A DNA stretch of 13,120 nucleotides from an uncultured Prevotella sp. (lineage in GTDB: Bacteria; Bacteroidota; Bacteroidia; Bacteroidales; Bacteroidaceae): NCBI GenBank assembly GCA_934196725.1, contig CAKPWR010000068.1, forward strand, positions 1 through 13,120, given 5' to 3'. Made by a program: the position numbers and the translations under genes. Below are positions 1-13,120 of this stretch, piece after piece; position 1 is the stretch's first letter; every line of letters begins with the position of its first letter. The notes under the pieces are model-generated. The model saw only the letters and a list, made by a program, of their open reading frames with translations, was not told where the DNA came from and searched no databases.

Positions 1-52
1 CTGGGCTAGGGGCTTCTGCCCTTGCAGGGCGTGTGGGGTAAAACTTGAGGAA
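1..52 (+). repeat. Right-end fragment of the 251-bp palindromic repeat element (copy 0, cut by window edge)
   Basis: The window opens inside the same module that ends the complete copies further right: a CTGGGCTAGG stretch, a short hairpin made of CTGCCCT and AGGGCG, then a GTGTGGGG and AACTTGAG end. Only the last fifth is visible. It stops about 40 bases before the umuC start, so this copy sits directly upstream of umuC and may carry or block its promoter. It differs slightly from the other copies (TTGCAGGGC instead of TTTCAGGGC). Confidence 0.8.
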
Positions 53-90
53 GTTCAGTTATACAAGAATTAGTGGATTATATTGAAAAA

Positions 91-1479
91 ATGATAGGAC
101 TGGCAGATTGCAACAACTTCTACTGTTCGTGCGAACGAGTGTTTCGCCCCGACCTGATAGGGAAGCCCGTGGTTGTCTTGAGTAACAACGACGGGTGCAT
201 TATCGCACGCTCTGAAGAAGCCAAGGCGCTGGGCTATAAGATGGGCGACCCGTTCTATCAGGTAAAGGAAAAACTGGAGGCAGAAGGCGTAGCTATCTTC
301 TCCAGCAACTACACACTTTATGGCTCGCTCTCCAATAGGGTGATGTCGATGCTGTCGCACTACTCGCCCCTCATCGACCAATACTCCATCGACGAGAGTT
401 TCTTCGAAGTGGATCATTCCATGGCAAAGAGCTTTTTTGAAACAGATCATTCCATGGCAGAACGTTTCTTCAAGGAATATCCGAAGGAAAACGTTACTTC
501 TGCTACAGCAGATTCTCTCCTCCACCAATATGGCGCCAGAATTTCGGCTGATGTGCTCCGAGCCGTAGGCATCCCTATCTCCATCGGAATCGCAGAGACG
601 AAGACTCTGGCAAAAATCGGTTCTAAATTCGCCAAGAAATACAAGGGATATCAGGGCTGCTGTCTCATCGATACAGATGAACGGAGACACAAGGCTCTGA
701 CTCTGTTCCCGATAGAAGATGTATGGGGAATAGGCAGGCAGATAGCCCGGAAACTCGACTATATGGGAATCAGAACTGCCGCCCAGTTTGCGGATAAGAA
801 AGAGAGTTGGGTGCGCAGCCATTTCAACATCACCACCGTCAGGACCTGGAAGGAACTGAACGGAGAGAGTTGCATCAGCATCGAGGAATTGCCCCAGAAG
901 AAGAGCATCTGCACCAGCAGGAGTTTTGCCGACGAGGGCATTACAGACAAGAACGTGATAGAAGAAGCCGTGGCTAATTTCGCAGTACGCTGTACTGAAA
1001 AATTAAGAAGACAAGGTAGCGTATGCCAGGGCATTACGGTATTTGCATGGACCTCAAGATTCAATGAGAACGTGCCCGAATATACCATTCACGACTCCCT
1101 CACCCTACCCATCGCCACCAATGCGCAGGACGAGATTGTGGGCGCCGCTCTCAGTATTCTCCGCGCCAAATATCCGAAACCGATGACAGACAGCAGAGCT
1201 GACCGCCCCGACATGTCGTTTCACTTCAAGAAGGCAGGTGTCATCCTGTGGCAAATCTCCCCCGACAATCCTCGCCAGCAGGACCTCTTCGACCCTATCG
1301 ACCGAAGCAAGCAAAAAGCGCTGATGGAAGCCATCGATGCCATTAACCGCAAGAACGGCTATAGCACGATAAGGCAAGCCATACAAGGCACCGATTGCCA
1401 ATTCGATTTGAAACGGGAATACATGTCAAAACGTTTCACAACGAACATCAACGAAATACTGAAGGTAAAAACCCAATGA
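91..1479 (+). CDS. umuC: DNA polymerase V catalytic subunit UmuC (Y-family translesion polymerase)
   Basis: Y-family DNA polymerase that, with processed UmuD', copies past DNA lesions in the SOS response at the cost of mutations. From the ATG at 91 the protein is 462 aa and begins MIGLADCNNFYCSCERVF, matching the family N-terminus; a GTG at 73 would add six residues and is less likely. Catalytic acidic residues are visible at D6 and in SIDES (D101, E102), the same numbers as in E. coli UmuC. NNDGCIIAR (residues 32-40) is the dNTP-binding finger motif, IPISIGIAETKTLAK (161-175) and VWGIGRQ (211-217) follow, and QQDLF (396-400) is a good beta-clamp-binding motif. It is about 40 aa longer than E. 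coli UmuC. Part of the excess is an insertion after SIDESFFEV that includes a duplicated 11-residue DHSMA..FF unit. It lies 48 bases before umuD. Confidence 0.95.
   Translation: MIGLADCNNFYCSCERVFRPDLIGKPVVVLSNNDGCIIARSEEAKALGYKMGDPFYQVKEKLEAEGVAIFSSNYTLYGSLSNRVMSMLSHYSPLIDQYSIDESFFEVDHSMAKSFFETDHSMAERFFKEYPKENVTSATADSLLHQYGARISADVLRAVGIPISIGIAETKTLAKIGSKFAKKYKGYQGCCLIDTDERRHKALTLFPIEDVWGIGRQIARKLDYMGIRTAAQFADKKESWVRSHFNITTVRTWKELNGESCISIEELPQKKSICTSRSFADEGITDKNVIEEAVANFAVRCTEKLRRQGSVCQGITVFAWTSRFNENVPEYTIHDSLTLPIATNAQDEIVGAALSILRAKYPKPMTDSRADRPDMSFHFKKAGVILWQISPDNPRQQDLFDPIDRSKQKALMEAIDAINRKNGYSTIRQAIQGTDCQFDLKREYMSKRFTTNINEILKVKTQ
412..477 (+). repeat. 33-bp in-frame tandem duplication inside umuC
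   Basis: GATCATTCCATGGCA occurs at 412 and again at 445, so the unit is 33 bp (11 codons), two copies. It encodes DHSMAKSFFET followed by DHSMAERFFKE. The duplication falls just after the catalytic SIDE motif, in a stretch that is short in classical UmuC. Confidence 0.85.
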
Positions 1480-1527
1480 GATGCAAAATTAGCCCCCTTC
1501 AAAAAATGGGCTCCATAAACTAAGAAA

Positions 1528-1986
1528 ATGAATAAGAATAACGAAAATAATATAAAGCTGACATTTCACCCTGCGGAATTCGGAGAAAAGATGCCGATTC
1601 CGCTGGCTGAACAAAGCGTAAAAGCCGGCTTCCCTTCGCCGGCACAAGACTATATGGAGGGAGAAATAGACCTCAACGATATTCTGGTTCGCCATCGTGA
1701 GGCAACTTTCTACGTGCGTGTTTCGGGCGACAGCATGAAGGATGCAGGCATTTTTGACGGTGACCTCGCTGTGGTTGACCGGCAGATAGAACCCTCTAAC
1801 GGCAACTTTGTGATAGCTTTCGTAGATGGCGAATTCACCATTAAACAGTTCAAGATGGACGAAAGCGGAACCTTTGGCTGGCTCATCCCATGGAACAGTG
1901 ATTTCTCTCCTATCCGGGTAGATGAAACCAACCGATTCATGGTTTGGGGCGTGGTGACCTATGTGATTCATCAGATTGCTGAATAG
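1528..1986 (+). CDS. umuD: DNA polymerase V autoproteolytic subunit UmuD (S24/LexA-type peptidase)
   Basis: SOS mutagenesis subunit that cuts itself with help from RecA filaments to give UmuD', the partner of UmuC. The protein is 152 aa, slightly longer than E. coli UmuD. The self-cleavage region is KAGFPSPAQDY, with the predicted cut between A33 and G34 (Cys-Gly in E. coli). The catalytic dyad is visible: Ser69 in VSGDSMKDAG and Lys106 in VDGEFTIKQFK. IDLNDILV (47-54) and GVVTYVIH at the C-terminus also match the family. There is no N-terminal helix-turn-helix, so it is not LexA itself. It follows umuC by 48 bases and is probably co-transcribed. The order umuC-umuD is reversed relative to the common umuDC operon. 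I saw no LexA box because the region upstream of umuC is mostly outside the window or repeat. Confidence 0.95.
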   Translation: MNKNNENNIKLTFHPAEFGEKMPIPLAEQSVKAGFPSPAQDYMEGEIDLNDILVRHREATFYVRVSGDSMKDAGIFDGDLAVVDRQIEPSNGNFVIAFVDGEFTIKQFKMDESGTFGWLIPWNSDFSPIRVDETNRFMVWGVVTYVIHQIAE

Positions 1987-2035
1987 TTTTAAGTTAAAGA
2001 ACGTAAAATAATTAACCATTTTCGGTATTTTTTAT

Positions 2036-2043
2036 TACTTTTG
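2036..2043 (+). promoter_or_regulatory. Candidate Bacteroidetes -7 promoter element (TACTTTTG)
   Basis: TACTTTTG fits the Bacteroidetes -7 consensus TAnnTTTG and lies in AT-rich DNA after umuD. No clear TTTG -33 box is present at the expected spacing, so support is partial. If used, transcription would run through the whole 251-bp repeat copy before reaching the gene at 2382, giving it a highly structured leader. Confidence 0.4.
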
Positions 2044-2094
2044 TTGGCTAAAATGTGGCATTTCAATACTGCATTAAACACAAATTAATAAAAA

Positions 2095-2345
2095 ACTGAA
2101 CTTTCGCATGTGGTTCAAGAACGGGCTGAAGGCCCAAAAGCTCTTAGCCCAGGGCATCGCCCTGGGTATAATGGCAATCAGCAAGGCGCCCTGTAAGGGC
2201 AAAAGCCTTATGTTTTTGCCTGGAGTTTTAAAGCTTTTGCCCTTACAGGGCGACAAGTTTGTGTCCGTAATTACCCAGGGCGATGCCCTGGGCTAGGAGT
2301 TTCTGCCCTTTCAGGGCGCATGGGGCTTACATGCGAAACTTAAGT
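2095..2345. repeat. 251-bp palindromic repeat element, complete copy 1
   Basis: The element starts ACTGAACTTTCGCATGTGG and ends with TTACATGCGAAACTTAAGT; the two ends are imperfect inverted repeats of about 20 bp. Inside are nested palindromes: GGGCTGAAGGCCC, CCCAGGGCATCGCCCTGGG, GCCCTGTAAGGGC, its complement GCCCTTACAGGGC, CCCAGGGCGATGCCCTGGG, and a CTGCCCTTTCAGGGCG hairpin. The left and right halves are rough reverse complements, so the whole can fold into one long hairpin or several small ones. Copy 2 has the same length. It encodes no convincing protein. It resembles intergenic dispersed palindromic repeats (REP/BIME- or MITE-like) of Prevotella and relatives. How it moves is not visible here. 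Confidence 0.9.
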
Positions 2346-2381
2346 AAAAAATTAACAAAATAAACTACAAAAAACAAAGCC

Positions 2382-3482
2382 ATGGAATACGCTTTATATA
2401 GATACGAGTTTGAGGTCATAGAGAAGAAAGACTCCTCCATAAACCTATTCCCCGAGCTATCGGAGAGTTTTAACCCAAGACAGGCGTTCGAGAAAAAGAG
2501 CGAACTGCTCAACTATCTGCTAGAAAATGACTATCAGATGCTCCTTGCCGAACAAAATCAGCAGGCCGCCGAACCAAATCAGCAGGTTGCAGAGCCAAAT
2601 CAGCAGGTTGCCGAACCAAATCAGCAGGTTGCTGAACGTAGCCTCTTTCCTGTTGCTCCGGCTAGCGCAAAAACTGAGCAAGCCTTTACCTTTGATTGGG
2701 CTAGCTTAAAACCAACGCTAACCTTTACCAGCAGCAGAAAGAAAAAGCTCTACCACAAATACACTTCTGCACCGAAGGATGGATTTGCCATCCTGGAACT
2801 AGCCCGCTGTAGAAGCATAAGCCATCGGCCGAAACCCTTTTTGGATAAAGCCGTGATAGAAGACGACTACGAGTCACTTCACATCATCATAGACAACCGC
2901 GGCACCTATCAGCGTGTAGCCATCGAAGTGAAATCTTCCGTTTTCAAAAAGACCGATACCGTGGCCGATTCACTTGCCCGTGCCCTGAGCGAGGCATTTG
3001 CCCGCTATGGACTCGTGGTGAAAGTGGTGCCCATCCGCGATGACAAGCACTTCTGGAGTTTAGTGAGCGACAGAAAGCAGTTTCCACGTGGCTTCAATAA
3101 ACTGTGTGTAAAGTTCCCACAAATCAACGACCCAAAAGTAACCGAAGCTATGAGACGTGCCAATATCATCTATCGTGAAATGTTTCATTCCAATCTCGTT
3201 ATCATACAAGAATCGTCTGAGGGAGAAAAACTCAGTTTCAACGAAGAAGACGAGAAACAGAGAGAATACATGAAACTTTGCGCAGAAAATGCCGACAGCA
3301 TCCAGGTATCGCCAATAGGTGCCCGCCCTATCACGCTTGGAGGAAAAACTGCCAAGACGCAACAGATGACTGATGCGGAACGTAAAAACATCGAGGATGT
3401 GAACCACGAGATAGGGCTCTTCGATGGCGACCCAATTCAATCCACCCAATCATTCATGGACAAAGCATACGGTAAAGCATGA
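2382..3482 (+). CDS. Protein of unknown function (366 aa), first gene of an overlapping two-gene unit
   Basis: I do not recognise this protein. It begins MEYALYRYEFEVIEKK at an ATG 36 bases after repeat copy 1. Residues 1-55 look like a small folded domain; residues 56-84 are four copies of a Q/N-rich heptapeptide (AEPNQQV) forming a hydrophilic linker; residues 120-310 are a mixed alpha/beta domain (HIIIDNRGTYQRVAIEVKSS, then a helix, then YGLVVKVVPI), and residues 321-366 are charged and probably flexible. The layout (a strand pair with IEV, a long helix, VVPI, a later Asn/Gln-rich strand) faintly recalls DUF4747-type proteins linked to defence loci, but that is a weak impression from memory. 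There is no signal peptide or membrane segment, so it is probably cytoplasmic. The stop overlaps the next start (ATGA), indicating translational coupling with the 308-aa gene. Confidence 0.85.
   Translation: MEYALYRYEFEVIEKKDSSINLFPELSESFNPRQAFEKKSELLNYLLENDYQMLLAEQNQQAAEPNQQVAEPNQQVAEPNQQVAERSLFPVAPASAKTEQAFTFDWASLKPTLTFTSSRKKKLYHKYTSAPKDGFAILELARCRSISHRPKPFLDKAVIEDDYESLHIIIDNRGTYQRVAIEVKSSVFKKTDTVADSLARALSEAFARYGLVVKVVPIRDDKHFWSLVSDRKQFPRGFNKLCVKFPQINDPKVTEAMRRANIIYREMFHSNLVIIQESSEGEKLSFNEEDEKQREYMKLCAENADSIQVSPIGARPITLGGKTAKTQQMTDAERKNIEDVNHEIGLFDGDPIQSTQSFMDKAYGKA
2547..2630 (+). repeat. Four 21-bp tandem repeats encoding a Q/N-rich linker
   Basis: Four in-frame copies of a 21-bp unit containing CCAAATCAGCAGGTT run without interruption and encode AEQNQQA, AEPNQQV, AEPNQQV, AEPNQQV. 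Copies 2 to 4 are nearly identical, which suggests recent expansion. The repeat lengthens the linker without shifting the frame. Confidence 0.95.
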
Positions 3483-4405
3483 CACAAAACGACAGAAGGC
3501 GCAAGAACCTCAGAAAAGAAGAACCGATTTATAGACAGCAGGCTCAATACCTACGAATAATGGGAGAAAAAAAAGCCTCTGACACAACAAATGACGATGT
3601 GGCAGATAAACTCCGCAACCTAGACCTCCTGACTTGGGATGAAACCGAACGATACTTCGCCCGATTCGCCGAAGACCTGGATGATGCGAGCTATGCGGTG
3701 ACCGACTTGCTTATAGAAACAGCCTGCCTAGGCAGAACTATAGGAATGGAAAGGGAATTGCCTCCCCTGATAGCTGCCCTGACTTTCGCAAGATTGATGG
3801 CAGCCGGCGACGAGGTGTTTGAGAAATATCAGGACATCTGGATAGCCATCATGAGCTCACAAGACCGCAACCCAGAAGCCAAGCCCCTCTTCGAGAAATT
3901 CTGTCAAGAGATAGAGGCCAACAAGTTAGACCCATCCACCGGCAAGGAGACCATCTACCGCCGTGGCGACCCGATAGAGCGATTCAGAAGCACTGGGGTG
4001 GCTAAGACGGAGGCTCGGCAAGAGGCGCTGCTCTACGGGATACTGGAAGCCACCAAGGGCTGGAACAGAAAGGAGGCTTTCAAGGCTTGCTGGCCCCTAT
4101 GGGAGGAGCTGTGGAAGTACTTGCTGGAGAAGGATGAGCTGGTAGAGGAAATCTCCCGAAAGCATCCCAAAAGCAGCTCAAACAACACTTCTATCAACAT
4201 CACGCTGGTGTGCAATGTGGCTGGACTTCTGAACTGTCATTTAAAAACCCAGGGCCACGATGTAGCTTCCTGCTCAAGACTTGCAGACTTGATCAAGGAA
4301 AATTGGAACTCCTCGCAGAGCCACAAGGAATTGAGCAAAATCACCAAACTCTCAGATGAGCAAGCAAAGCTGATAAAAGCCTGGCTCACCATGAACATTA
4401 AATAA
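3479..4405 (+). CDS. Protein of unknown function (308 aa), second gene of the two-gene unit
   Basis: I do not recognise this protein. The ATG overlaps the TGA of the 366-aa gene by 4 bases, so the pair is almost surely co-translated. It starts with a strongly basic stretch (DRRRKNLRKEE) and is otherwise rich in charged, amphipathic helices: residues 40-125 (DLLTWDETERYFARFAEDL; LLIETACLG; AALTFARLMAAGDEVFEKY), 176-228 (EARQEALLYGILEATKGWNRKEAF, then several Trp) and 262-305. A Ser/Asn-rich SSSNNTSIN stretch at 232-240 breaks the helices. I see no nuclease, ATPase or membrane motif. It may be an adaptor or structural partner of the 366-aa protein (inference). It ends just before the hexamer array that precedes the next promoter. 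Confidence 0.85.
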   Translation: MTQNDRRRKNLRKEEPIYRQQAQYLRIMGEKKASDTTNDDVADKLRNLDLLTWDETERYFARFAEDLDDASYAVTDLLIETACLGRTIGMERELPPLIAALTFARLMAAGDEVFEKYQDIWIAIMSSQDRNPEAKPLFEKFCQEIEANKLDPSTGKETIYRRGDPIERFRSTGVAKTEARQEALLYGILEATKGWNRKEAFKACWPLWEELWKYLLEKDELVEEISRKHPKSSSNNTSINITLVCNVAGLLNCHLKTQGHDVASCSRLADLIKENWNSSQSHKELSKITKLSDEQAKLIKAWLTMNIK

Positions 4406-4407
4406 AG

Positions 4408-4509
4408 ATTACCCCAGAAAATTACCAACAAATTACCATTTTTTCGCTAACTATCTGAAAGTGAGCGGGTAATTTGGTGGTAATTATTTTTTTGAAAGTA
4501 CCTATTACC
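4408..4509. promoter_or_regulatory. Array of six ATTACC hexamers with a 17-bp inverted repeat; candidate operator
   Basis: ATTACC occurs on the + strand at 4408, 4421, 4432 and 4504, and as GGTAAT at 4468 and 4479. The pairs 4421/4432 and 4468/4479 each have an 11-bp step, about one helical turn. Together they form an inverted repeat: ATTACCAACAAATTACC (4421-4437) against GGTAATTTGGTGGTAAT (4468-4484), one mismatch in 17, with a 30-base loop whose ends (CGCTAAC / GTGAGCG) also pair. It lies directly upstream of the promoter at 4514-4544. No T-run follows at terminator spacing close to the stem, apart from ATTTTTTTG at 4486, so a terminator role for the 308-aa gene is possible but less likely than a protein-binding site. 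Confidence 0.6.
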
Positions 4510-4513
4510 ACCT

Positions 4514-4544
4514 TTTGACCATCCACCATCTATTACTACCTTTG
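4514..4544 (+). promoter_or_regulatory. Strong Bacteroidetes-type promoter (TTTG -33, TACCTTTG -7)
   Basis: TTTG at 4514-4517 and TACCTTTG at 4537-4544 are separated by 19 bases, matching the Bacteroidetes primary-sigma consensus (TTTG, 19-21 bases, TAnnTTTG). The transcript would begin near 4551 and have an untranslated leader of about 130 bases before the ATG at 4682. This is the best promoter in the window and probably drives the gene at 4682, perhaps the whole following module. Confidence 0.8.
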
Positions 4545-4608
4545 CACCCGTCGAAAGGACAAAACAAATTGTTGAATCTGAGTTGATACGAGTCTATCAG
4601 AGGGAGAG

Positions 4609-4632
4609 TTCCCGGGAAATAAGTGTCGACAC
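4609..4632. promoter_or_regulatory. Twin 10-bp palindromes in the mRNA leader
   Basis: TTCCCGGGAA (4609-4618) and GTGTCGACAC (4623-4632) are perfect palindromes only 4 bases apart, about 60 bases downstream of the predicted transcription start. GAGAG just before and CTCTC at about 4652 could pair around them. They may be operator sites or part of a folded leader RNA. The region from 4406 to 4681 otherwise holds no gene. Confidence 0.5.
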
Positions 4633-4681
4633 CTTTCTTTTCTTGAAAAGGCTCTCTTCTACTCGCAAAAATTTTCAGATT

Positions 4682-5113
4682 ATGAACAATCAGAATTTTC
4701 AGATGGATGGTGTAAAGCACACCCAGTTCTTAACCGCTGCCCAGCAGCACTCCGAGTTCCTAACCGCCCAGCAGCACTCACTGCTCTCTGGCATGGCTTC
4801 TTACGACGGTGGCAGAAACTTCCTCTTCTCGCCCGATGAGCCTGTGGCAGGTCTGTTGCCACGATTCCGATGCCATGGCATCGCTCAGCAGATGACCGAC
4901 GGCACCTTCGACTTCGTGGCCAAGCCCAAGGTTAAGCCGCAGTCGCAGCTCATCAAGAAGCTGGCGCACGGCAGAGTGAGCAAGACCAAAGATGGCGCCA
5001 TACAGCTCACACTCAAAGTGTATAGCGACGAGGGCGAAAACATCGCCGAGGCTATCTACAAGGAAGCTGGTATCGCCAAGGACGCCATCGTGGACTATCA
5101 GATGAAGAGATGA
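4682..5113 (+). CDS. Hypothetical protein (143 aa), first gene after the strong promoter
   Basis: I do not recognise the family. The ATG at 4682 (MNNQNFQMDGVKHTQFLTA) fits the predicted transcript; an upstream in-frame start at 4583 would add 33 residues of leader translation and cross the palindromes, so it was rejected. Residues 15-33 contain an imperfect duplication (QFLTAAQQHSEFLTAQQHS). Residues 37-75 include GGRNFLFSPDEPVAGLLPRF, and the C-terminal half (100-143) has alternating strand and helix: GRVSKTKDGAIQLTLKVYS, then ENIAEAIYKEAGI. It is soluble, with no signal peptide. Its place at the head of the DUF3987/primase module suggests a small accessory or regulatory protein of that module (inference). 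Confidence 0.75.
   Translation: MNNQNFQMDGVKHTQFLTAAQQHSEFLTAQQHSLLSGMASYDGGRNFLFSPDEPVAGLLPRFRCHGIAQQMTDGTFDFVAKPKVKPQSQLIKKLAHGRVSKTKDGAIQLTLKVYSDEGENIAEAIYKEAGIAKDAIVDYQMKR
4724..4780 (+). repeat. Imperfect in-frame duplication (30 + 27 bp) in the 143-aa gene
   Basis: CAGTTCTTAACCGCTGCCC is followed 30 bases later by GAGTTCCTAACCGCCC, and both are followed by AGCAGCACTC. The copies encode QFLTAAQQHS and EFLTAQQHS, so the second has lost one codon. Confidence 0.8.
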
Positions 5114-5128
5114 TTTTCGGGGGCCAAA

Positions 5129-5158
5129 GCTGCTTGACAAGCTCAGCTTGCAGGCAGC
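5129..5158. other. Hairpin after the 143-aa gene
   Basis: GCTGC TTGA CAAGC TCA GCTTG CAG GCAGC folds into a two-part stem 16 bases after the stop codon. There is no T-run after it, so it is not a standard intrinsic terminator. It may protect the upstream mRNA end or attenuate transcription into the ATPase gene. Confidence 0.4.
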
Positions 5159-5169
5159 AAAACCGTCTC

Positions 5170-5323
5170 AGCGTCTCAGTCTCAGTTAGGAAAAAAGTCA
5201 CAATTCCACTCCATACCCTCTTTCTTATGCCTTATAACTTATTGATAATTAATTAGTTATATAATATATAGATAGAAGTGGATACCCCTTTTAAAACAAC
5301 TGAGACACTGAGACTGAGACGCT
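5170..5323. repeat. 17-bp perfect inverted repeat flanking an AT-rich core, upstream of the ATPase gene
   Basis: AGCGTCTCAGTCTCAGT (5170-5186) is exactly the reverse complement of ACTGAGACTGAGACGCT (5307-5323), 120 bases apart. Each arm is itself built from repeated GTCTCA/TGAGAC units, and extra partial units lie beside both (CCGTCTCA at 5163; CTGAGACA at 5300). The core from about 5221 to 5275 is nearly all A and T. The design (iterated short sites around an AT-rich stretch, next to a helicase/primase-type gene) resembles a replication origin or an operator for a self-regulating protein. Which one cannot be told from sequence. No gene fits in 5114-5372. Confidence 0.7.
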
Positions 5324-5372
5324 AAGCCCCCCAAGTAACAAACCAAAAATTGATTTAATTCTCTAGAAAGCA

Positions 5373-6674
5373 ATGAATTACAACATTTTTAGCAGTACCG
5401 CTCCAGCGATGCCAAAACCGGGCAAAGGCACAGAATTTGTGAAACTTGCCCTCTCACAAGCCTCAAAAGACATGCGAGAAGTGCTCATTCCGATGGCAAT
5501 TCCTGCCTTGGCAGCCCATCTCACGGACGTAAGATTCATGTATTGCGACAACAAATTTTATGAAATGTGCGGCCAAATGGGGCATTTGATAGGTCCTTCG
5601 GGCATAGGAAAGGCGCAATTGAGCCATCTTGTAGAGGCTATCATGCGACCTTTTCGCAAACACGATGAGATAGAGTATAAGAAACTCGTAGACTGGCAGC
5701 GACAGATGAAGACCAAGGGTGCCAACAAGGAAAAACCCGAGCGTCCAGACGTGAGCTTCTGGTTTCCACCTGCCGATATCACCAACCCAGCCTTCATCCA
5801 GAACGCCATGGCTCTGGAGAAGCTGGGCGAGCGAACCCAATACCTCAACCTGCCCGAGGTGGAGATGGCAGACAAGATGTGCGGCGGACACAGACAGGTG
5901 AGCCAGATGGTGAGAAACATCTACGACTGTCAGCGAGCTGGTGCCCTGCGTGCCACGGCTGATGGCGTGACGGGTAACCCTACGCTCAGAGTGAACATCA
6001 CCTTTACCTCTACCCCCGATGCCGCCCGACTTTTTTATAAGAAAGACCTCACCAATGGTTTCTTCGGGCGCATCCCATTTGCCTACAAGGCTCGTGGCGA
6101 GCGCTGCGGCAGGATTCCACGCCAAGGCACCTATGGGCAGGACTTCATGGAGCAGCTGGACAGCTATCTGCTCAGGTTGGACAACTGCAAGGGCGCATTC
6201 ACCGTGAAGCCGCTCAACAAGATAGCCGACCAGCTGGCAGAGGAGATGGCGAAGCTAGCCGACCTAGCCGACGACGACATGCTCTGGGAGCTCTCCCACC
6301 GCAGCATCTTCTCAGCATGGAAGAAGGGAGCAGTGCTGTGGATTCTGAACGATCAGCAGTGGGCTCGAAGCATCGGTGACTTCGTGGTGTGGTTTTGCTA
6401 CTATGATTTGTGGTCGAAGGTAAAGGTATTCGGCGACATGTTTAAGGGCGCAGATGCCAACGAGGAGGAGACTCAGAAGAGCGGACCGAAGAATATGCTC
6501 GACAGTCTGGATAATTCCTTCAACGAGCAGCAGCTGGAGGCATTGCGCCTGAGCCTTGGCAAGAGCAAGGAGGGCACCAAGCATCAGCTCAGAGTTTGGA
6601 AGAACCGTGAGTTTATCACCTACTGCGCCCAGACAGGACTTTACACCAAGACGCAGGAGTATCTGAAAAAGTAA
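5373..6674 (+). CDS. DUF3987-like P-loop ATPase (helicase-like, VirE/primase-associated family)
   Basis: The 433-aa protein has a Walker A-like loop GPSGIGKAQ (residues 74-82), with Ala where Ser/Thr is usual; DUF3987 relatives also often lack that residue. A charged helical arm follows (94-122), then FPPADITNPAFIQNAM (131-146), a Walker B-like strand YLNLPEVEM (157-165) ending in acidic residues, NITFTSTPDAA (208-218) as a sensor-type strand, and LTNGFFGRIPFAYK (226-239), an arrangement typical of DUF3987. A C-terminal helical segment with a winged-helix look covers 383-432. Such ATPases are found with primases in Bacteroidales mobile and phage-like elements and are thought to act in DNA replication. 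Here the primase is the next gene, and a repeat copy separates the two. Family assignment is from remembered motif order, not a search. Confidence 0.75.
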   Translation: MNYNIFSSTAPAMPKPGKGTEFVKLALSQASKDMREVLIPMAIPALAAHLTDVRFMYCDNKFYEMCGQMGHLIGPSGIGKAQLSHLVEAIMRPFRKHDEIEYKKLVDWQRQMKTKGANKEKPERPDVSFWFPPADITNPAFIQNAMALEKLGERTQYLNLPEVEMADKMCGGHRQVSQMVRNIYDCQRAGALRATADGVTGNPTLRVNITFTSTPDAARLFYKKDLTNGFFGRIPFAYKARGERCGRIPRQGTYGQDFMEQLDSYLLRLDNCKGAFTVKPLNKIADQLAEEMAKLADLADDDMLWELSHRSIFSAWKKGAVLWILNDQQWARSIGDFVVWFCYYDLWSKVKVFGDMFKGADANEEETQKSGPKNMLDSLDNSFNEQQLEALRLSLGKSKEGTKHQLRVWKNREFITYCAQTGLYTKTQEYLKK

Positions 6675-6677
6675 AAA

Positions 6678-6980
6678 TGACTTTTGTTTGAAAAAAGTAA
6701 AAAACTGAAGTTTCGCATGTGGTTCAATTACGGGTTGAAGGCCCATAAGCTCCTAGCCCAGGGCATCGCCCTGGGTATGATGGCAATCAGCAAGGCGCCC
6801 TGTAAGGGCAAAAGCCTTATGTTTTGCCTGGAGTTTTAAAGCTTTTGCCCTTACAGGGCGACAGGTTTGCGTCCGTAATAACCCAGGGCGATGCCCTGGG
6901 CTAGGAGCTTCTGCCCTTTCAGGGCGTGTGGGGGCTTACTTGCGAAACTTGAGTAAAAAAAAAGACTTTTGTATGGAAAA
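6678..6980. repeat. Direct repeat flanking repeat copy 2 (possible duplicated target)
   Basis: GACTTTTGTTTGAAAAA (6679-6695) before copy 2 and GACTTTTGTATGGAAAA (6964-6980) after it match at 15 of 17 positions. The right copy overlaps the primase start codon. This fits a duplication of the original intergenic sequence when the 251-bp element arrived, or a remnant of a duplicated junction. The outer bases lie a short way from the element ends, so it is not a textbook flush target-site duplication. Confidence 0.45.
6704..6954. repeat. 251-bp palindromic repeat element, complete copy 2
   Basis: Same length, orientation and internal palindromes as copy 1, with scattered substitutions (for example ATTACGGGTTGAAGG where copy 1 has GAACGGGCTGAAGG, breaking that hairpin). 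Ends are ACTGAAGTTTCGCATGTGG and TTACTTGCGAAACTTGAGT. It lies between the ATPase and primase genes, which would otherwise be nearly adjacent. Confidence 0.9.
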
Positions 6981-7974
6981 ATATGAAATTCAAAAGCTCC
7001 GCGACCTTCCAATAGAGGAGGTCGCAGAGCGACTGGGAATGCAGGTGTCGAAGCACAAGTGCCTCTGCCCTTTCCACGACGATCATCATGCCAGTTTCTC
7101 GTTCAACACGAGGAAGAACTATTGCCGCTGCTACGTATGTATGGACCACAGCATCGGCACCATCGACCTCGTGATGAAATATACAGGCAAGGATTTTCTC
7201 TCGGCTTGCCGTTGGCTGGCAGATGCGCATCAAGTTTATATAGCAGATGGAAAGGAGAAATATTCTCCGGAGAAAGCACCCTCCTCGAAAGCACCCTCCT
7301 TTGATGCCAGCAAGTACGCCCGATTCTTCGAGCATCCTTGGCTCAACGAGGCGGCACGTAGATTCCTCTTCGAGGAGAGACGGATTGATGCGAGAGTGGT
7401 AAACTGGTGCCGACTGACATCATGGACGGATAAGGAGGGCATCAGTTGGCTACAGACTCCTTACTATGACGTGGACGGAAAACTCATCGGCATCCAAAAC
7501 AGAAATCTCGGCAAGGCGAATCTTAACAAAGAAGCTTCGGGAAAGAGCGATTTAGGCAAGGCGAATCCAGATAAAGAAGCTTCGGGAAAGAGCATTCCCC
7601 GCTTCCGATTCCCCTACGGTTCGCAATGCGGCATCTATAATCTGCCCGTCACAAGACAGCTTTCGCCCGGTGAACCTCTTTACATCACCGAGGGGTGCAG
7701 CGACTGCTGGGCGATGCTCTCTGCCGGACACAAGGCGATAGCCATTCCGTCTGCCACGCTCTTGAAACCAGCCGACAAGCAATGGTTGGCAGAAATGGGA
7801 GAAAAGCTCAAGATAGAATGGCACATGTATCCCGACAAGGATGCGCCGGGCGAACATCTCTACATGCAGTTGAAGGAGATTCTGCCCTCGCTAGTGCATC
7901 ACCAGTTGCCCCCTGGATGCAAGGATTTCAGCGACTATTATCTGAAAAGCTTTGTATATTGCCCAGTATTTTGA
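6973..7974 (+). CDS. CHC2 zinc-finger / TOPRIM DNA primase (DnaG-like), C-terminus possibly altered by a repeat
   Basis: Primase that would make RNA primers for element replication. Start chosen at 6973 (MEKYEIQKLRDLPIEEVAERLG); the open frame upstream is only repeat sequence. The zinc finger is CPFH...CYVC (C32, H35, C53, C56), followed by GTIDLVMKYTGKDFLSACRWLA, as in DnaG N-termini. The TOPRIM part has LYITEGCSDCWAMLSAGHKAIAIPSATLL (E240) and HMYPDKDAPG (D288, D290), the metal-binding acidic residues. At 333 aa it is shorter than chromosomal DnaG and lacks the helicase-binding C-terminal domain, as is usual for element-borne primases. Two insertions are repetitive: APSSKAPSF (102-110) and a doubled 15-residue GKAN...KEASGKS unit (about 180-206). 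The stop codon lies at the edge of repeat copy 3, so the last residues (FVYCPVF) may not be original. Confidence 0.88.
   Translation: MEKYEIQKLRDLPIEEVAERLGMQVSKHKCLCPFHDDHHASFSFNTRKNYCRCYVCMDHSIGTIDLVMKYTGKDFLSACRWLADAHQVYIADGKEKYSPEKAPSSKAPSFDASKYARFFEHPWLNEAARRFLFEERRIDARVVNWCRLTSWTDKEGISWLQTPYYDVDGKLIGIQNRNLGKANLNKEASGKSDLGKANPDKEASGKSIPRFRFPYGSQCGIYNLPVTRQLSPGEPLYITEGCSDCWAMLSAGHKAIAIPSATLLKPADKQWLAEMGEKLKIEWHMYPDKDAPGEHLYMQLKEILPSLVHHQLPPGCKDFSDYYLKSFVYCPVF
7274..7303 (+). repeat. 15-bp in-frame duplication in the primase linker
   Basis: AAAGCACCCTCCTCG is followed directly by AAAGCACCCTCCTTT, encoding KAPSS KAPSF, in the linker between the zinc-finger and TOPRIM parts. Confidence 0.7.
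7510..7594 (+). repeat. 45-bp in-frame tandem duplication in the primase gene
   Basis: GGCAAGGCGAAT occurs at 7510 and 7555, and AAAGAAGCTTCGGGAAAGAGC follows in each; the unit is 45 bp (15 codons), about two copies. It sits between the strand with LIGIQNRNLG and the RFRFPYGSQCGIYN strand, and adds a basic, flexible loop. Confidence 0.85.
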
Positions 7975-8174
7975 AGCTTTTGCCTGGAGTTTTAAAGCTT
8001 TTGCCCTTACAGGGCGACAGGTTTGCGTCCGTAATTACCCAGGGCGATGCCCTGGGCTAAGAGCTGCTGCCCTTTCAGGGCGCCTTGCTGATTGTCATTA
8101 TACCCAGGACGATGCCCTGGGCTAGGAGCTTTTGGGCCTTCAGCCCGTTCTTGAACCACATAAGAAACTTGAGT
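7974..8174. repeat. Rearranged palindromic repeat element, copy 3
   Basis: It begins in the middle of the element (TTTTGCCTGGAGTTTTAAAG), continues as the right half of copies 1 and 2 to CTGCCCTTTCAGGGCG, and then switches to the reverse complement of the left half (CCTTGCTGATTGTCATTATA ... GGGCCTTCAGCCCGTTCTTG) and ends with the outer end AGAAACTTGAGT. AAGCTTTTGCC is also duplicated at its left edge (7974 and 7996). The copy is thus a mosaic built by exchange between inverted arms. It lies between the primase stop and the DUF4248 gene. Confidence 0.9.
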
Positions 8175-8203
8175 CAGTTATTAATTTTTAAAGCAAAATA
8201 AAT

Positions 8204-8425
8204 ATGGAAGAATTTATCATTCACACGTACACCAAGAAGGAACTTGCCCTGATGTACTTTCCCGAGAGCATGCCACGCACTGCCGTCAACCATCTGATGG
8301 CTTGGATTCGACTTTGTACCCCTCTGTGGGATGAACTCCTGAAGATGGGCTACAAGAAGACCAGCAAGGCTTTCTCGCCTAAACAGGTGAAGGCCATCGT
8401 GGAGTATCTGGGCGAACCGGGATAA
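8204..8425 (+). CDS. DUF4248 family small protein (73 aa)
   Basis: Small soluble protein, MEEFIIHTYTKKELALMYFPE, with two helical parts: TKKELALMYFPESMPRTAVNHLMAWI (10-35) and KAFSPKQVKAIVEYLG (55-70). This resembles DUF4248 proteins, which in Bacteroidales sit between a primase/ATPase gene and HU-like DNA-binding and smalltalk genes, exactly as here. The pattern of a YTKKELA start and a final SPKQVKAIVEYLG helix suggests a helix-turn-helix-like fold. The exact role is unknown. The leader is AT-rich (AAAGCAAAATAAAT) with no Shine-Dalgarno sequence. An intrinsic terminator follows 60 bases after the stop. Confidence 0.8.
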   Translation: MEEFIIHTYTKKELALMYFPESMPRTAVNHLMAWIRLCTPLWDELLKMGYKKTSKAFSPKQVKAIVEYLGEPG

Positions 8426-8484
8426 TACCGTTTCAGAAATTTACGAAAAAATATTCTGAAAAATGTGCCGCCATCTCACGGCAT

Positions 8485-8519
8485 CAGCCGCCAACGCATA
8501 ACCGCTGGCGGCTGTTTTT
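8485..8519 (+). terminator. Intrinsic terminator after the DUF4248 gene
   Basis: CAGCCGCCA (8485-8493) pairs perfectly with TGGCGGCTG (8506-8514) around a 12-base loop and is followed by TTTTT. It ends transcription of the primase/DUF4248 part. Confidence 0.85.
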
Positions 8520-8520
8520 G

Positions 8521-8528
8521 TATCTTTG
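8521..8528 (+). promoter_or_regulatory. Candidate -7 promoter element (TATCTTTG)
   Basis: TATCTTTG fits TAnnTTTG and comes directly after the terminator T-run, a compact terminator-promoter junction. The -33 region falls inside the terminator stem and has no clear TTTG, so this is a partial match. It would give the repeat region and the smalltalk gene a separate transcript starting near 8535. Confidence 0.5.
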
Positions 8529-8568
8529 CATCGTGATTCAGAAAGCGCTGGAAAATCACTTTCCTAGT

Positions 8569-8588
8569 TGGAGAAAAATATTTCTCCA
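8569..8588. other. Perfect hairpin at the start of the 8.5-kb transcript
   Basis: TGGAGAAA AATA TTTCTCCA is an 8-bp perfect stem with a 4-base loop, about 35 bases after the predicted transcription start. No T-run follows. It may stabilise the 5' end of the RNA. Confidence 0.5.
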
Positions 8589-8620
8589 GTTGGGAAAATG
8601 AAAAAGAGCATCTGGAGTAA

Positions 8621-8734
8621 GTCTCTGAAAAGAAAGAGAAGGACTCGGATAAGAAAGAGAATGTCTCAGACAAGAAAGAGAAAATCTCGGATAAGAAAGA
8701 GAATGTCTCAGACAAGAAAGAGAAAGTCTCAGAT
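8621..8734. repeat. Five 21-bp tandem repeats in an intergenic region, coding status unclear
   Basis: Units of 21 bp with core AAGAAAGAGAA run from 8621 to 8725, plus part of a sixth. Units alternate between two types (CAGACAAGAAAGAGAAA and CGGATAAGAAAGAGAAT), so the higher-order period is 42 bp. One frame gives SDKKENVSDKKEKISDKKE, a natural-looking charged heptad that continues to DSMSRYESFFSFFIYKRTGS, but it has no start codon and a TAA just upstream (8618). Another frame has an ATG at 8598 and reads a very basic 51-aa peptide (MKKSIWSKSLKRKRR). Possibly a decayed gene or a repetitive RNA. The stretch 8426-8834 holds no confident gene. Confidence 0.85.
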
Positions 8735-8834
8735 GCATCAAGTTATAACCTAGACTCCATGTCCCGATACGAGTCCTTCTTTTCCTTTTTTATTTATAAG
8801 AGGACGGGAAGTTAAAAGGGGGCAAGAGAAACGT

Positions 8835-9023
8835 ATGAACCCAAACATGAAAGCATTCATCAAGTATCTCATCGTGGCCGTGTGCTCTGCCATCGTCACC
8901 TACCTCACCAGCTCATGCACCGCAGGACTGGTAATAGGAAAGAACCAACGACAGCAACAAGAGAACAATATCTCCACCCGAGCTGATTCCACTCACTTCG
9001 TGCCTACCATCACCATTAGATAA
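8835..9023 (+). CDS. Smalltalk-like small membrane protein (62 aa)
   Basis: MNPNMKAFIKYLIVAVCSAIVTYLTSSC has a short basic start, one hydrophobic segment (about residues 8-24) and a Ser-Ser-Cys, which could be a lipobox-like end (Cys28). This matches the 'smalltalk' proteins found next to HU-like DNA-binding and DUF4248 genes in Bacteroidales. It is longer than most members, with a polar tail (RQQQENNISTRADSTHFVPTITIR). Starts at 8835 and 8847 (MKAFIK) are both possible; GGGGGC upstream at 8818-8823 does not decide. Function is unknown; it is probably anchored in the inner membrane or lipidated. Confidence 0.75.
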   Translation: MNPNMKAFIKYLIVAVCSAIVTYLTSSCTAGLVIGKNQRQQQENNISTRADSTHFVPTITIR

Positions 9024-9136
9024 ATGGTAAAAAGAATTTTTTAAAGGTAAAAAAGTAAAAAGGTAAAATTACGAAGGGAAAGATATTGACAACCAAGTCT
9101 CTATTTAACTTGGAAATTACGATTATCAATTCTCTA

Positions 9137-9192
9137 AATTATAAATTATTAATTATAAATTATTAATTATAAATTATTAATTATAAATTATT
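9137..9192. repeat. Four perfect 14-bp AT-only tandem repeats before the HU-like gene
   Basis: AATTATAAATTATT is repeated four times without mismatch, ending 9 bases before the ATG at 9202. It contains no G or C. It may act as an upstream A/T promoter element, a curved-DNA binding site for the HU-like protein itself, or an unstructured translation-initiation region; copy number may vary by slippage. Confidence 0.9.
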
Positions 9193-9201
9193 TAAAGTAT
9201 T

Positions 9202-9780
9202 ATGGCAATTAATCTGAAAGCAAAGGAAACCCTCATCCAGGTGGGTGAGTTGAAAGGTAAGTATCGTTACGTGCTCGGCACCGAGCTTTACAACAAGCTC
9301 TCTGAGAGCAAGGTTATCAAAGAGGCTGCTCTGCGCAGCGGAGTGAGCCGAGGCGTGATGCAGGCATGTTGGGATGCCGCAGGCGAGGTAATCAAGGCTT
9401 GGACCACCGAAGGTCACTCCGTGGCTATTCCAGGACTGGGCACCATGAGATTTGGCGTAAGAGCCAAAAGCGTGGAAACCGTGAACGAGGTGGCAAGCGG
9501 ACTCATCACTGCCAGACGTGTCATCTTCACGCCTAACGTGGAAATCAAACAGGAACTGATGGACACTGCCATCCAGATAACCTGCTACGACCGCAACGGC
9601 AAGGTTATCAAGAACGTTACCTCTGGCGATAAAGGCAATGTGGAAGACCCAGACAACAACCCAGGCGGAGGCGAAGACAACAACCCAGGCGGAGGCGAAG
9701 ACAACAACCCAGGCGGAGGCGAAGACAACAACCCTGGCGGAGGTGAAGACAACAACCCTGGCGGCGAAATGGGTTTGTAA
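9202..9780 (+). CDS. HU/IHF-like DNA-binding protein (HU-HIG type) with acidic repetitive tail
   Basis: The 192-aa protein has an HU-like fold in residues about 25-120: helices around SESKVIKEAALRSGVSRGVMQACWDAAGEVIKAWTTEGHSVAIPGLGTMRFGVRAKS, then the strand ARRVIFTPNVEIKQEL. This fits the Bacteroidales HU-HIG DNA-binding family rather than housekeeping HU (about 90 aa). Residues 125-145 (IQITCYDRNGKVIKNV) may be the short Ig-like strand region. The tail (about 147-190) consists of five NNPGGGED units. HU-like proteins bend or coat DNA. In this module it may bind the element or regulate it (inference). It is preceded by an AT-only tandem repeat and followed by a strong terminator. No amidase gene follows, although one often does in related Bacteroides loci. 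Confidence 0.85.
   Translation: MAINLKAKETLIQVGELKGKYRYVLGTELYNKLSESKVIKEAALRSGVSRGVMQACWDAAGEVIKAWTTEGHSVAIPGLGTMRFGVRAKSVETVNEVASGLITARRVIFTPNVEIKQELMDTAIQITCYDRNGKVIKNVTSGDKGNVEDPDNNPGGGEDNNPGGGEDNNPGGGEDNNPGGGEDNNPGGEMGL
9652..9771 (+). repeat. Five 24-bp tandem repeats encoding the NNPGGGED tail
   Basis: GACAACAACCCAGGCGGAGG (followed by CGAA) repeats every 24 bp, five copies, the last shortened by one glycine codon. Copies 1-3 are identical and copies 4-5 share CCT for CCA, so the array has probably grown by stepwise duplication. Confidence 0.95.
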
Positions 9781-9809
9781 TAGCCCTATAATCATACGAT
9801 ACAGACTGG

Positions 9810-9848
9810 CGGCTGTGCTCAAGCAATTGGGTACAGCCGTTTTTTTTT
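9810..9848 (+). terminator. Intrinsic terminator closing the HU-like module
   Basis: CGGCTGT (9810-9816) pairs with ACAGCCG (9833-9839), followed by nine T residues. It lies 30 bases after the HU-like stop. The stem sequence resembles that of the terminator at 8485-8519 (GGCGGCTG). Confidence 0.9.
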
Positions 9849-10098
9849 GTAAATACACGCTAAAATCTGCCGAATAGCTTAGAATGAGCGATTTATGAGT
9901 TTTTCACCTCAATGGAGGTAATGATTTAGCAACGGTTCTAATTTCTACAATTTGCATACGTTTGATTGTCAAACAACTCTTTGTCATCTTGGTGGCAAAA
10001 ATACAATTTTAAATTTAGAATACTGCATTGTTGCATGTTTTTTAGAGTTTATTATCATCTCAAATATAATTAGGACTCTGAAAATATGCAAAAATGTG

Positions 10099-10150
10099 CG
10101 GTATTTTATGAAATTATCCGTAGAATCTTACCGTATTCTCGAAATTTATT
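10099..10150. promoter_or_regulatory. Candidate AbiEi operator: imperfect direct repeat upstream of the abiE promoter
   Basis: CGGTATTTTATGAAATTAT (10099-10117) and CCGTATTCTCGAAATTTATT (10131-10150) are similar over about 19 bases and 32 bp apart, close to three helical turns. AGAAT (10122-10126) and ATTCT (10135-10139) also form a small inverted repeat. AbiEi antitoxins are known to repress their own promoter, and these sites sit immediately before the -7 box. The stretch 9849-10098 is AT-rich and shows only a lone TACGTTTG at 9957. Confidence 0.4.
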
Positions 10151-10151
10151 G

Positions 10152-10159
10152 TATTTTTG
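10152..10159 (+). promoter_or_regulatory. -7 promoter element for abiEi-abiEii (TATTTTTG)
   Basis: TATTTTTG matches TAnnTTTG, 30 bases before the ATG at 10190. No TTTG at -33 is seen, which is common for promoters controlled by regulators. The start codon is also preceded by AGAGGTG, one of the few Shine-Dalgarno-like sequences in the window. Confidence 0.55.
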
Positions 10160-10189
10160 CAGCTGTAATGACATTTAATAAGAGGTGAA

Positions 10190-10771
10190 ATGAACAATAT
10201 AGTTTGCAAAGTAGCAGCACTTGGTGGCACTATCTCCACTACTGATATATCTCATCTGTCAGAGTATAAACGACTGTTGAGAGCTAAGGAGCGTGGCGAC
10301 TTGATAAAGTTGCGTCATGGCATATATGCCGTTCCCGATGCTTTGCTTAATACAATGATTGATGTGGAACGGATTGTACCTAATGGTATTGTATGCCTGT
10401 ACAATGCGTGGGCTTACCATCAGCTTTCGACAACTGTTCCACCTGCTTTTTGTATAGCCATCGCCAACAAGAGGAAGGTGGTGATACCAGATACGCTTCC
10501 GATAGAGCTGTATTATTGGAAGAAGGAGAACTTGGAGTTCGGCATTATGGATGCAGAAATTTCAGGGTATCATGTTCGTATTACCGATATGGAGCGAAGT
10601 GTTTGCGATGCTGTAAAATACAGGAATAAATTGGGGTTAGATATTTGTGCTGAAGTGATACGCTCCTATCTGAAAAAGCCAAACCGCAATCTCACTCGTT
10701 TGCAAGATTATGCCAAACGCCTCAGAGTATTCAACACATTAAAAAATTATCTTGAAATAGCAATAGAATAA
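10190..10771 (+). CDS. abiEi: AbiEi-type antitoxin / transcriptional regulator (type IV toxin-antitoxin)
   Basis: The 193-aa protein has the AbiEi pattern: an N-terminal winged helix (GGTISTTDISHLSEYKRLLRAKERGDLIKLRHGIYAVPD, about residues 13-51), followed by a domain with CLYNAWAYHQLSTTVPPAFCIAIANKRKV and YHVRITDMERSVCDAVKYRNKLGLDICAEVIRSYLK. AbiEi counteracts the toxin and represses the operon, usually through repeats upstream. Only one base separates its stop from the abiEii start, so the pair is translationally linked. AGAGGTG provides a ribosome-binding site before the ATG. Confidence 0.85.
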   Translation: MNNIVCKVAALGGTISTTDISHLSEYKRLLRAKERGDLIKLRHGIYAVPDALLNTMIDVERIVPNGIVCLYNAWAYHQLSTTVPPAFCIAIANKRKVVIPDTLPIELYYWKKENLEFGIMDAEISGYHVRITDMERSVCDAVKYRNKLGLDICAEVIRSYLKKPNRNLTRLQDYAKRLRVFNTLKNYLEIAIE

Positions 10772-10772
10772 A

Positions 10773-11642
10773 ATGGGAAAGAAAAACTACGGCAAGTCTG
10801 TAAAGACACGTTTGCTCAATCTAATGAATGAAACAGGTTATAAATATATGTATCTCTTGGCAAGATACTTTAACGAAAGGTTGCTTTACAGAGTATCTGT
10901 TAGTCAATACAAGGACAACTTCTTGTTGAAGGGAGGCTCTTTGCTTTATGCCATGAATGGACTTGAAGCACGTCCAACGGTAGATGTTGACTTTATGGCA
11001 GACAGAATCAGCCGTGACAGGGATTTTCTTGCGCATGTGTTCCAAGAAATCTTGTGCATTGTATGCGATGAAGATGGTGTATCGTTTGACATTGACAGCA
11101 TCAAGGTAGAACCTATCACCGTCGAAAAGAAATATCCCGGCACCCGATTCTACTTTACTGCCCACATGGATACCATTGCTTACAATATGTCTGTTGACAT
11201 TGGTTTTGGTGATGTTGTTACTCCATATCCCACAACCATTGATTTTCCATTGCTTTTGCCAGACATTCCATCTGTAAACATACAGGCTTATTCCTTGGAG
11301 ACTGTTGTCGCCGAGAAATTCCATACGATGATAGACCGTGATGTGCTCAATAGTCGCATGAAAGATTTCTTTGACTGTTATCAACTCTTGACAAAGAGAG
11401 ATTTGAATGATGATACTTTATATGATGCCATCAAGGCGACTTTTGACAATAGAGGTATTACGTACAATCCCGAATTGCAGTTGTTCACAAAAGGTTTTGC
11501 GACAGACGCAGCACGTATCACTCGTTGGAAAGCATTCTTGAAAAAGATTCAATGGAAAGAGACTCTTGATTTCGAGACCGTAATGGAGGTTATACGAGAA
11601 AGGTTGCAGCCTATGGCTGAAAAATACTGGAAAAAATATTAA
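10773..11642 (+). CDS. abiEii: AbiEii/AbiGii-family nucleotidyltransferase toxin
   Basis: The 289-aa protein has the DUF1814/AbiEii nucleotidyltransferase motifs: KGGSLLYAM (53-61, the GS motif), RPTVDVDFM (67-75, catalytic D71 and D73), VDIGFGD (141-147) as a further acidic strand, AEKFHTM (180-186, conserved EK) and NSRMKDFFDCYQL (193-205, Asp198). No key residue is missing, so the toxin looks intact. In characterised systems the toxin stops growth, in phage-infected cells giving abortive infection, by transferring nucleotides to tRNA or other targets. It is paired with abiEi upstream. A lipoprotein esterase starts only 17 bases after its stop and may be read from the same transcript. Confidence 0.9.
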   Translation: MGKKNYGKSVKTRLLNLMNETGYKYMYLLARYFNERLLYRVSVSQYKDNFLLKGGSLLYAMNGLEARPTVDVDFMADRISRDRDFLAHVFQEILCIVCDEDGVSFDIDSIKVEPITVEKKYPGTRFYFTAHMDTIAYNMSVDIGFGDVVTPYPTTIDFPLLLPDIPSVNIQAYSLETVVAEKFHTMIDRDVLNSRMKDFFDCYQLLTKRDLNDDTLYDAIKATFDNRGITYNPELQLFTKGFATDAARITRWKAFLKKIQWKETLDFETVMEVIRERLQPMAEKYWKKY

Positions 11643-11659
11643 TATTAAAACAGATAGTT

Positions 11660-12883: not shown

Positions 12884-13002
12884 GTGCTAAAGTATATTTA
12901 CCATGAAAGGAATTGCTATCAATGACAGAAAGCAGAAAAAGTAGTTTACCCTTTTATCATTCTTTCGTCTTTGGTTATAAAGGACGCTAAAAATTGAAGA
13001 TT

Positions 13003-13068: not shown

Positions 13069-13069
13069 T

Positions 13070-13097: not shown

Positions 13098-13120
13098 GAG
13101 AGATCTTTGAAAATCTTGCT

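Follow-up and report, generated by a model that had tools for sequence, protein, structure and literature searches.

A chromosomal gene pair of Prevotella with a RexA/RdgC-like predicted fold as a candidate anti-phage module

Contig CAKPWR010000068.1 of an uncultured Prevotella sp. (assembly GCA_934196725.1, positions 1 to 13,120; this whole stretch of 13,120 nucleotides is hereafter the window) carries two overlapping genes, A and B, that we consider a good candidate for an undescribed anti-phage system. A preliminary description, made from the letters of the window, had singled out the pair as possibly anti-phage, and the idea gains a concrete basis because the predicted fold of A resembles that of RexA, RdgC, CENP-N and Iml3. 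We infer an antiviral function, and our reading, to which we give about an even chance, is that A–B is a Rex-like module of sensor and partner, an optional piece of defence cargo at a chromosomal site that recurs among Prevotella relatives.

The A–B pair and the predicted fold of protein A

The two genes share the letters ATGA at 3479–3482, and the nearest of the genomes compared (G001, with 57% of sampled 31-letter words in common) has the same overlapping pair, its A protein 97% and its B protein 98% identical to those of the window. The few differences between the two genomes favour silent change in both genes (dN 0.012 and dS 0.060 with 21 changed codons in A; dN 0.010 and dS 0.028 with 12 changed codons in B), a merely supportive point at such small codon numbers. 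With 37 proteins related to A and 182 related to B at E 1e-3, both reading frames look like real genes, as the preliminary description had taken them to be. It had also stated that the proteins match no nameable family, and this holds at the level of sequence: A and B find nothing beyond chance in Pfam, PADLOC, PHROGs or NCBIfam (best Pfam E 0.029, best PHROG E 0.19), the PADLOC 2023 models match neither the window proteins nor those of loci L002–L004, and a search of PDB sequences returns no match for A and one chance-level match (E 2.4) for B. The qualification comes from structure. The AlphaFold model of window A (pLDDT 79.5, pTM 0.78) has a confident alpha/beta part after a linker, and in a Foldseek search of 350,542 PDB chains its first match is RdgC (E 2.6e-4) and its second is lambda RexA (E 5.9e-3), which places the predicted fold of A in the two-domain RexA/RdgC/Iml3/CENP-N group. 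The low-confidence linker (residues 70–109, pLDDT <50) overlaps the product of a 21-base tandem repeat, in agreement with the earlier picture of an alpha/beta domain behind a repeat-built linker. Because the protein measures 352, 359 or 366 aa in its nearest relatives, that is, steps of 7 aa, the length of the linker is probably polymorphic.

The RexA family model PF15969 recovers lambda RexA at 1e-97 and matches none of window A, 16 A4 members and five further A proteins; Pfam RdgC is unmatched by the A proteins scanned. When A profiles are aligned by hhalign with lambda RexA, four lambda-type RexAs and three actinophage RexAs, none scores above decoys, and the positive control, actinophage RexA against lambda RexA, goes undetected as well though the two are proven homologues. 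The A5 profile searched against PDB sequences gives five chance-level matches (best E 0.037), with no RexA or RdgC among them. PMC6426596 reports DUF4747 for Sbash gp30 and RexA. As a candidate family for A, DUF4747 (PF15931) was rejected: no A protein scanned matches it, lambda RexA is not listed either, so that the test is a weak one, and none of 149 genomes searched in the order has a PF15931 match over the cut-off.

A phage or plasmid origin of A was likewise considered and set aside. Searches of phage and plasmid collections by tblastn with window A (E limit 0.01) and with the A protein of locus L024 (E limit 1) give no match, and scans of IMG/VR with the same two proteins yield no relative. 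BFVD does contain two phage proteins, both uncharacterised, that are similar to the A model (A0A8S5PCY0, E 7.4e-14; A0A8S5QGP5, E 5.5e-5) and may be phage-borne relatives.

Partners of A and the spread of the pair

A is sparse and variable. A single-sequence search of 60 relatives gives four matches, namely G001 and three genomes with distant A genes (22–26% identity in alignment A2), each directly followed by an open reading frame of 277–285 aa. Profile searches match 8 of 393 genomes in the order, a figure that still counts locus L031, later judged a false hit, and 3 of 395 in the phylum; within the genus, a broader profile finds A in 59 of 398 genomes, and in 33 of the 176 with completeness of 90% or more and contamination of 5% or less. 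Drawn from most of the places found, and after removal of duplicates (L064–L067, L021 and L014 duplicate other loci), the working set comprises 73 A loci forming 66 clusters at 90% identity. Apparently broken copies, each in two pieces, occur for A in L030 and L070 and for B in L087; the pieces were treated separately, and because of these copies it seems that the module is also lost in places.

The coupling seen in the window is widespread. With start codons picked by script, 63 of the 73 loci have a next same-strand reading frame that begins no more than 60 bp from the A stop, and in 51 of them it overlaps A; it lies further off in eight loci and was not found in two. A single-linkage pairwise search sorts the partners into two groups, of 34 and of 29. 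Alignment of whole proteins by hhalign between the groups (95.5%, E 1.5e-8; 89.5%, E 2e-6; 82.6%, E 1e-5) suggests that they are linked; N-terminal parts alone give 93%, 73% and 16%, the last being the weak comparison of window-type B with the second group. On this basis a B-type partner follows A in 56 of the 66 clusters, or in 52 without four doubtful ones, and the pair is thus conserved and coupled across varied, defence-rich neighbourhoods, which the preliminary description had named as support for its idea.

That the two genes always travel together, a point that the preliminary description had wanted checked, does not hold. Because ten of the 66 A clusters depart from the A-then-B arrangement, the pair is conserved and not obligate. 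These ten include L024 and L032, where a membrane protein takes the partner position, and L110, where the order of the genes appears reversed. Locus L026, another of the ten, has A without B, and the gene directly after A there is one that we take, from its looks, to be HsdR. Conversely, a B profile built from one partner group finds 34 strong places in the 398 genomes, of which 28 lie beside A and six (L146–L151) have no detectable A; outside this count stand eight weak matches (E 1e-9 to 6e-4), one of them adjoining an A locus. Five of the six solitary B genes adjoin what we take to be type I restriction genes, among them presumed HsdR/HsdS-like genes in L146, L148, L149 and L151, and the other adjoins a presumably Abi_2-like gene. 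B may thus also exist independently of A in the company of type I restriction genes.

The AlphaFold model of window B is helical throughout at low confidence (mean pLDDT 52.5). The helical character stated in the preliminary description agrees with this; the basic start that it also mentioned is mild, with 10 K/R and 7 D/E in the first 40 residues. Window B is tied to the other partners through iterated profiles and hhalign, and most A genes, the window's included, carry such a helical B in the position that RexB holds after RexA. No segment of window B exceeds the threshold in a hydropathy script that finds four segments in lambda RexB (144 aa). In two loci from outside the genus, the same script reveals a different kind of partner: L024 (G249, same order) has A followed at −4 bp by a 153-aa protein with three segments, and L032 (G708, same phylum) has A followed at −4 bp by a 143-aa protein with four. 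These partners are multi-pass membrane proteins of RexB length that come close to the RexA–RexB arrangement, the likeness being one of length and hydropathy. A single segment, mostly near residues 79–119, is present in the partner at 19 further loci, window B not among them.

Many relatives have a third gene, C, after B, and a stretch of about 20 residues at the C-terminus of B resembles one at the N-terminus of C, varying from locus to locus (for example L028, L086, L100 and L106). For 25 candidate B–C pairs (next gene within 60 bp and B below 330 aa, with L018 and L087 added by hand), the own partner ranks first (12) or second (7) among the 25 in 19 cases. The two hand-added pairs were picked after the motif had been seen: the motif partner in L018 lies two genes down, past a RhuM-like gene, and B in L087 is represented by its second piece. 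The ranking fails in six pairs (L016, L019, L030, L069, L073 and L117), and in L016, L019 and L073 the following gene seems by eye to be something other than C. In a permutation of 23 pairs, leaving aside L030 and L117, the summed own-pair score of 1174 stands against a maximum of 854 in 20,000 permutations (0/20,000 reach it), a comparison in which the pairs are partly non-independent, L023/L068 and L084/L086 being close relatives and several pairs sharing a motif class. Against 500 shuffles of the own C, the score is never reached in 15 of the 23 pairs; weaker cases among the 19 are L082, L029, L017 and L088, where 10, 17, 19 and 30 shuffles reach it.

Elsewhere B and C form one protein. Residues 1–159 of the split B in L100 align with residues 1–158 of the fused B in L096 (72%, E 9e-81), and residues 45–231 of the L100 C align with residues 160–345 of the same fused protein (53%, E 1e-58). 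Of 20 C proteins, 7 match one of 36 one-piece B proteins at E 1e-3, as do 7 of 20 split B proteins, and a profile of a C subset matches the C-terminal parts of the second partner group (98.5%, E 4e-15). A protein cut in this way thus bears the motif on each of its new ends, and the simplest and most likely reading of these sequences is that the motif rejoins the B and C halves in relatives. The window itself has the one-piece form of B: the end of its B protein scores 20 against the next reading frame, a value reached by 195–305 of 500 shuffles, which is no motif match. Because the C-terminal part of window-type B finds no match among C proteins (hhalign prob 0.1–0.2), the fusion holds for relatives (L096, L100, L105 and others) and not for the window.

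Genomic neighbourhood and alternative readings

The surroundings of the pair are those first described, with UmuC/UmuD genes upstream and a mobile-element-like module followed by AbiEi/AbiEii downstream (Table 1). The downstream module also contains DUF4248 and HU-HIG genes, and an esterase-like gene accompanies the AbiE pair beyond it. Its gene at 5373–6674 is one that we assume to be of the VirE/DUF3987 type, and genes similar to the small gene at 4682–5113 lie near A–B in L023 and L029. The primase-like protein matches the PADLOC models 'RTasDnaG-like' (3.1e-52) and RT_UG29 (6.7e-18) and to that extent resembles a DnaG-like protein that accompanies defence reverse transcriptases; the window has no recognisable gene for such a transcriptase. 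Large intergenic repeats of about 240 bp, whose direct parts are 92–95% alike and which also include inverted parts, separate the UmuCD, A–B and primase segments. By blastn the same repeat family occurs in L020 (the matching Segatella copri locus), L114 and L117, and these repeats could serve cassette recombination. Short tandem repeats lie at 8615–8740 (21/42-base unit) and at 9651–9764 (24-base unit, about DNNPGGGE, close to where the HU-HIG protein ends).

Table 1 Features of the window
Feature	Position	Strand	Basis and remarks
UmuC-like Y-family polymerase	73-1479	+	Pfam IMS 1.2e-34; upstream neighbour
UmuD-like S24 peptidase	1528-1986	+	Pfam Peptidase_S24 5.8e-29; upstream neighbour
Intergenic repeat copy upstream of A	2082-2325	.	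Repeat search
Gene A	2382-3482	+	366 aa, ATG start; RexA/RdgC-like predicted fold (open reading frame, AlphaFold, Foldseek)
21-base tandem repeat in A	2545-2637	+	Tandem Repeats Finder, 4.4 copies; unit about AEPNQQV
Gene B	3479-4405	+	308 aa, ATG start; predicted helical partner, single-polypeptide form without end motif
Small gene of downstream module	4682-5113	+	Start inferred, open reading frame opens at 4583; longer frame without Pfam match
Module gene	5373-6674	+	Open reading frame without Pfam match
CHC2 zinc-finger primase-like gene of module	6928-7974	+	Pfam Zn_ribbon_DnaG 6.3e-11
Further repeat copies	6691-6933; composite 7978-8187 (direct 7978-8089, inverted 8063-8187); fragment 1-66		
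AbiEi/AbiEii type IV toxin–antitoxin pair	10190-10771, 10773-11642	+	PADLOC AbiEi 3.3e-50, AbiEii 2.3e-93

To compare neighbourhoods, up to two nearest upstream genes of 150–1200 aa were taken from 65 representative loci, giving 111 proteins from 57 loci (one swapped by hand, UmuD for an antisense frame), and set against 111 random genes of the same size, drawn on the same contigs from 20 regions that lie 28 kb or more away. Of the 111 upstream neighbours, 17 carry methyltransferase catalytic motifs, compared with 0 of the 111 controls (Fisher 7.9e-6); once proteins that are 60% or more alike are merged, the counts are 15 of 106 and 0 of 106 (3.6e-5). Methyltransferase motifs are thus enriched upstream, a result of the kind that the preliminary description had proposed to look for. 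PADLOC at E 1e-15 gives 295 family matches upstream and 67 in the control, counted per family and not per protein. Among the families listed, type II methyltransferases lead upstream (up to 8 proteins), and the control holds mad3-, DpdF- and PsyrT-type models with one AbiEi and one AbiEii match.

The HU/VirE-type module is picked up by one or more of its profiles in 57 of the 65 A loci and in one of the 20 control windows, in none of which A was found. The profiles were built on proteins with presumed names, seven of the 65 loci contributed to them and so match by construction, and the stretches compared measure 3–20 kb for A loci and 18 kb for controls. On these counts, A–B is one optional passenger of a recurrent chromosomal site. 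The site also gathers restriction genes and, in the window, AbiE genes, and part of the restriction–modification enrichment may be due to the site and not to a direct link with A–B. Restriction and abortive-infection genes thus seem to collect repeatedly at the HU/VirE-type module of Bacteroidales; a literature search on it gave nothing, and it may merit a survey of its own as a defence hotspot.

The same observations bear on three other explanations. In the first, A would act in recombination or replication much as RdgC does, with B as its partner, and both would perform element housekeeping for the HU/VirE-DUF3987/primase module and not fight phages. RdgC, a recombination modulator, is after all the best PDB match of A, the module accompanies most A loci, and in the window A–B lies directly upstream of it. 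We regard this as unlikely, because A is confined to 59 of 398 genomes in the genus and the module turns up in one of 20 random 18-kb windows, none of them with A, which suggests, in a small sample, several modules per genome, most lacking A. Moreover, no module gene was detected in the 20 kb around each of L024, L026 and L032, and the membrane-protein partner in two loci is unlike a replication factor. Our estimate is somewhat lower again for a restriction accessory, in which B, with or without A, would regulate restriction–modification, aid its specificity or protect the host during restriction. It would account for the methyltransferase gene beside A–B in L023 (the same gene in L004 matches Pfam N6_N4_Mtase at 3.4e-20), for the genes that we take by eye to be restriction or methyltransferase genes beside A–B in L026, L029, L070, L085, L095, L105 and other loci, and for solitary B beside presumed HsdR/HsdS-like genes in five of six loci. 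It sits poorly with a neighbouring restriction–modification type that appears to vary by locus, with the lack of any such gene among the ten main window reading frames scanned, and with the 94 of 111 upstream neighbours that carry no methyltransferase motif.

An autonomous toxin–antitoxin-like or regulatory pair with no role against phages, controlling for example the upstream SOS-type UmuDC, seems to us very improbable. Two overlapping genes, one possibly DNA-binding by its fold, do stand beside UmuDC in the window and in G001, yet among 57 loci with upstream genes listed UmuDC was recognised by eye only in the window's locus, and neither window protein matches a toxin or antitoxin family. 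A Rex-like module carried as optional cargo remains the reading that we develop below.

Comparison with known systems and a proposed mechanism

We compared the pair with lambda RexAB, Sbash gp30/31, CarolAnn gp44/43, Butters gp30/31 and P. putida RexABpp. Window A has a RexA-type predicted fold and heads two adjacent, co-directed genes; Sbash gp30/gp31 overlap by 41 bp, and A and B overlap too. The RexA-then-RexB order is the same in annotated lambda-type records (the lambda record carries the same label on both genes), and the relatives in L024 and L032 add a multi-pass partner of RexB length. On the other hand, A has no sequence match to RexA, most A genes have a helical partner without the four membrane segments of RexB, and A is chromosomal in Bacteroidota, with no phage or plasmid match by tblastn or in IMG/VR. 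PMC12894663 (2026) counts five Rex-like systems, all phage or prophage encoded, and PMC11077077, the RexA structure paper, mentions further phage homologues along with orphan chromosomal RexA homologues in Shewanella and Salinisphaera. The top fold match of A, RdgC, contrasts with it in genomic behaviour, A being sparse, variable, paired and set in defence-rich neighbourhoods, with no match to the Pfam RdgC family. RdgC is a single-gene housekeeping factor. For the matching ends of B and C, the nearest parallel is the Bell/NLR pairs (BASS), in which similar amyloid-like patterns face each other at C- and N-termini, according to PMC8086366. An amyloid character of the motifs in relatives of the window is putative by this analogy; the B and C proteins scanned have no NLR or Bell Pfam match, B and C are halves of one protein elsewhere, and the window pair is without a motif. 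In searches of open-licence literature, no description of the A–B pair was recognised.

Our proposed mechanism starts from the RexA/RdgC fold of A, which may dimerise and clamp or survey DNA. By analogy with the RexA model, an infection-linked replication or recombination intermediate, or a protein bound there, would alter A. The altered protein would then engage B, the product of the overlapping gene, as coupling and conservation suggest, and B, helical and without a predicted membrane segment, would in RexB's place effect or relay a stop of growth or replication. Many relatives have B cut into B and C, whose halves the matching motifs would rejoin, and in two relatives a membrane protein would take the effector or relay place. 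A bolder extension, which we offer tentatively as a possibility on the improbable side, is that a chromosomal DNA sensor of RexA/RdgC fold with exchangeable partners constitutes a widespread immune module of Bacteroidota. The partner would be a RexB-like membrane protein, a one-piece soluble effector, or a two-gene effector rejoined by private, locus-specific motifs that keep the halves of different copies apart and let the C half be swapped.

If the Rex-like reading holds, the pair would be a Rex-type system whose partner is new and, in relatives, is also assembled in a new manner. Were the module with exchangeable partners also real, the Rex sensor would be a general immune part and not a lambda curiosity, and the motifs would represent a natural, matched-tag way of building split immune proteins. 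The B/C split with its matching motifs lends itself to a clear and cheap biochemical test of motif-driven assembly. A chromosomal family of predicted RexA fold, present in 59 of the 398 genomes from a major gut genus and with dozens of natural variants and three partner types, would in turn allow a comparative test of what a RexA-type clamp senses and triggers.

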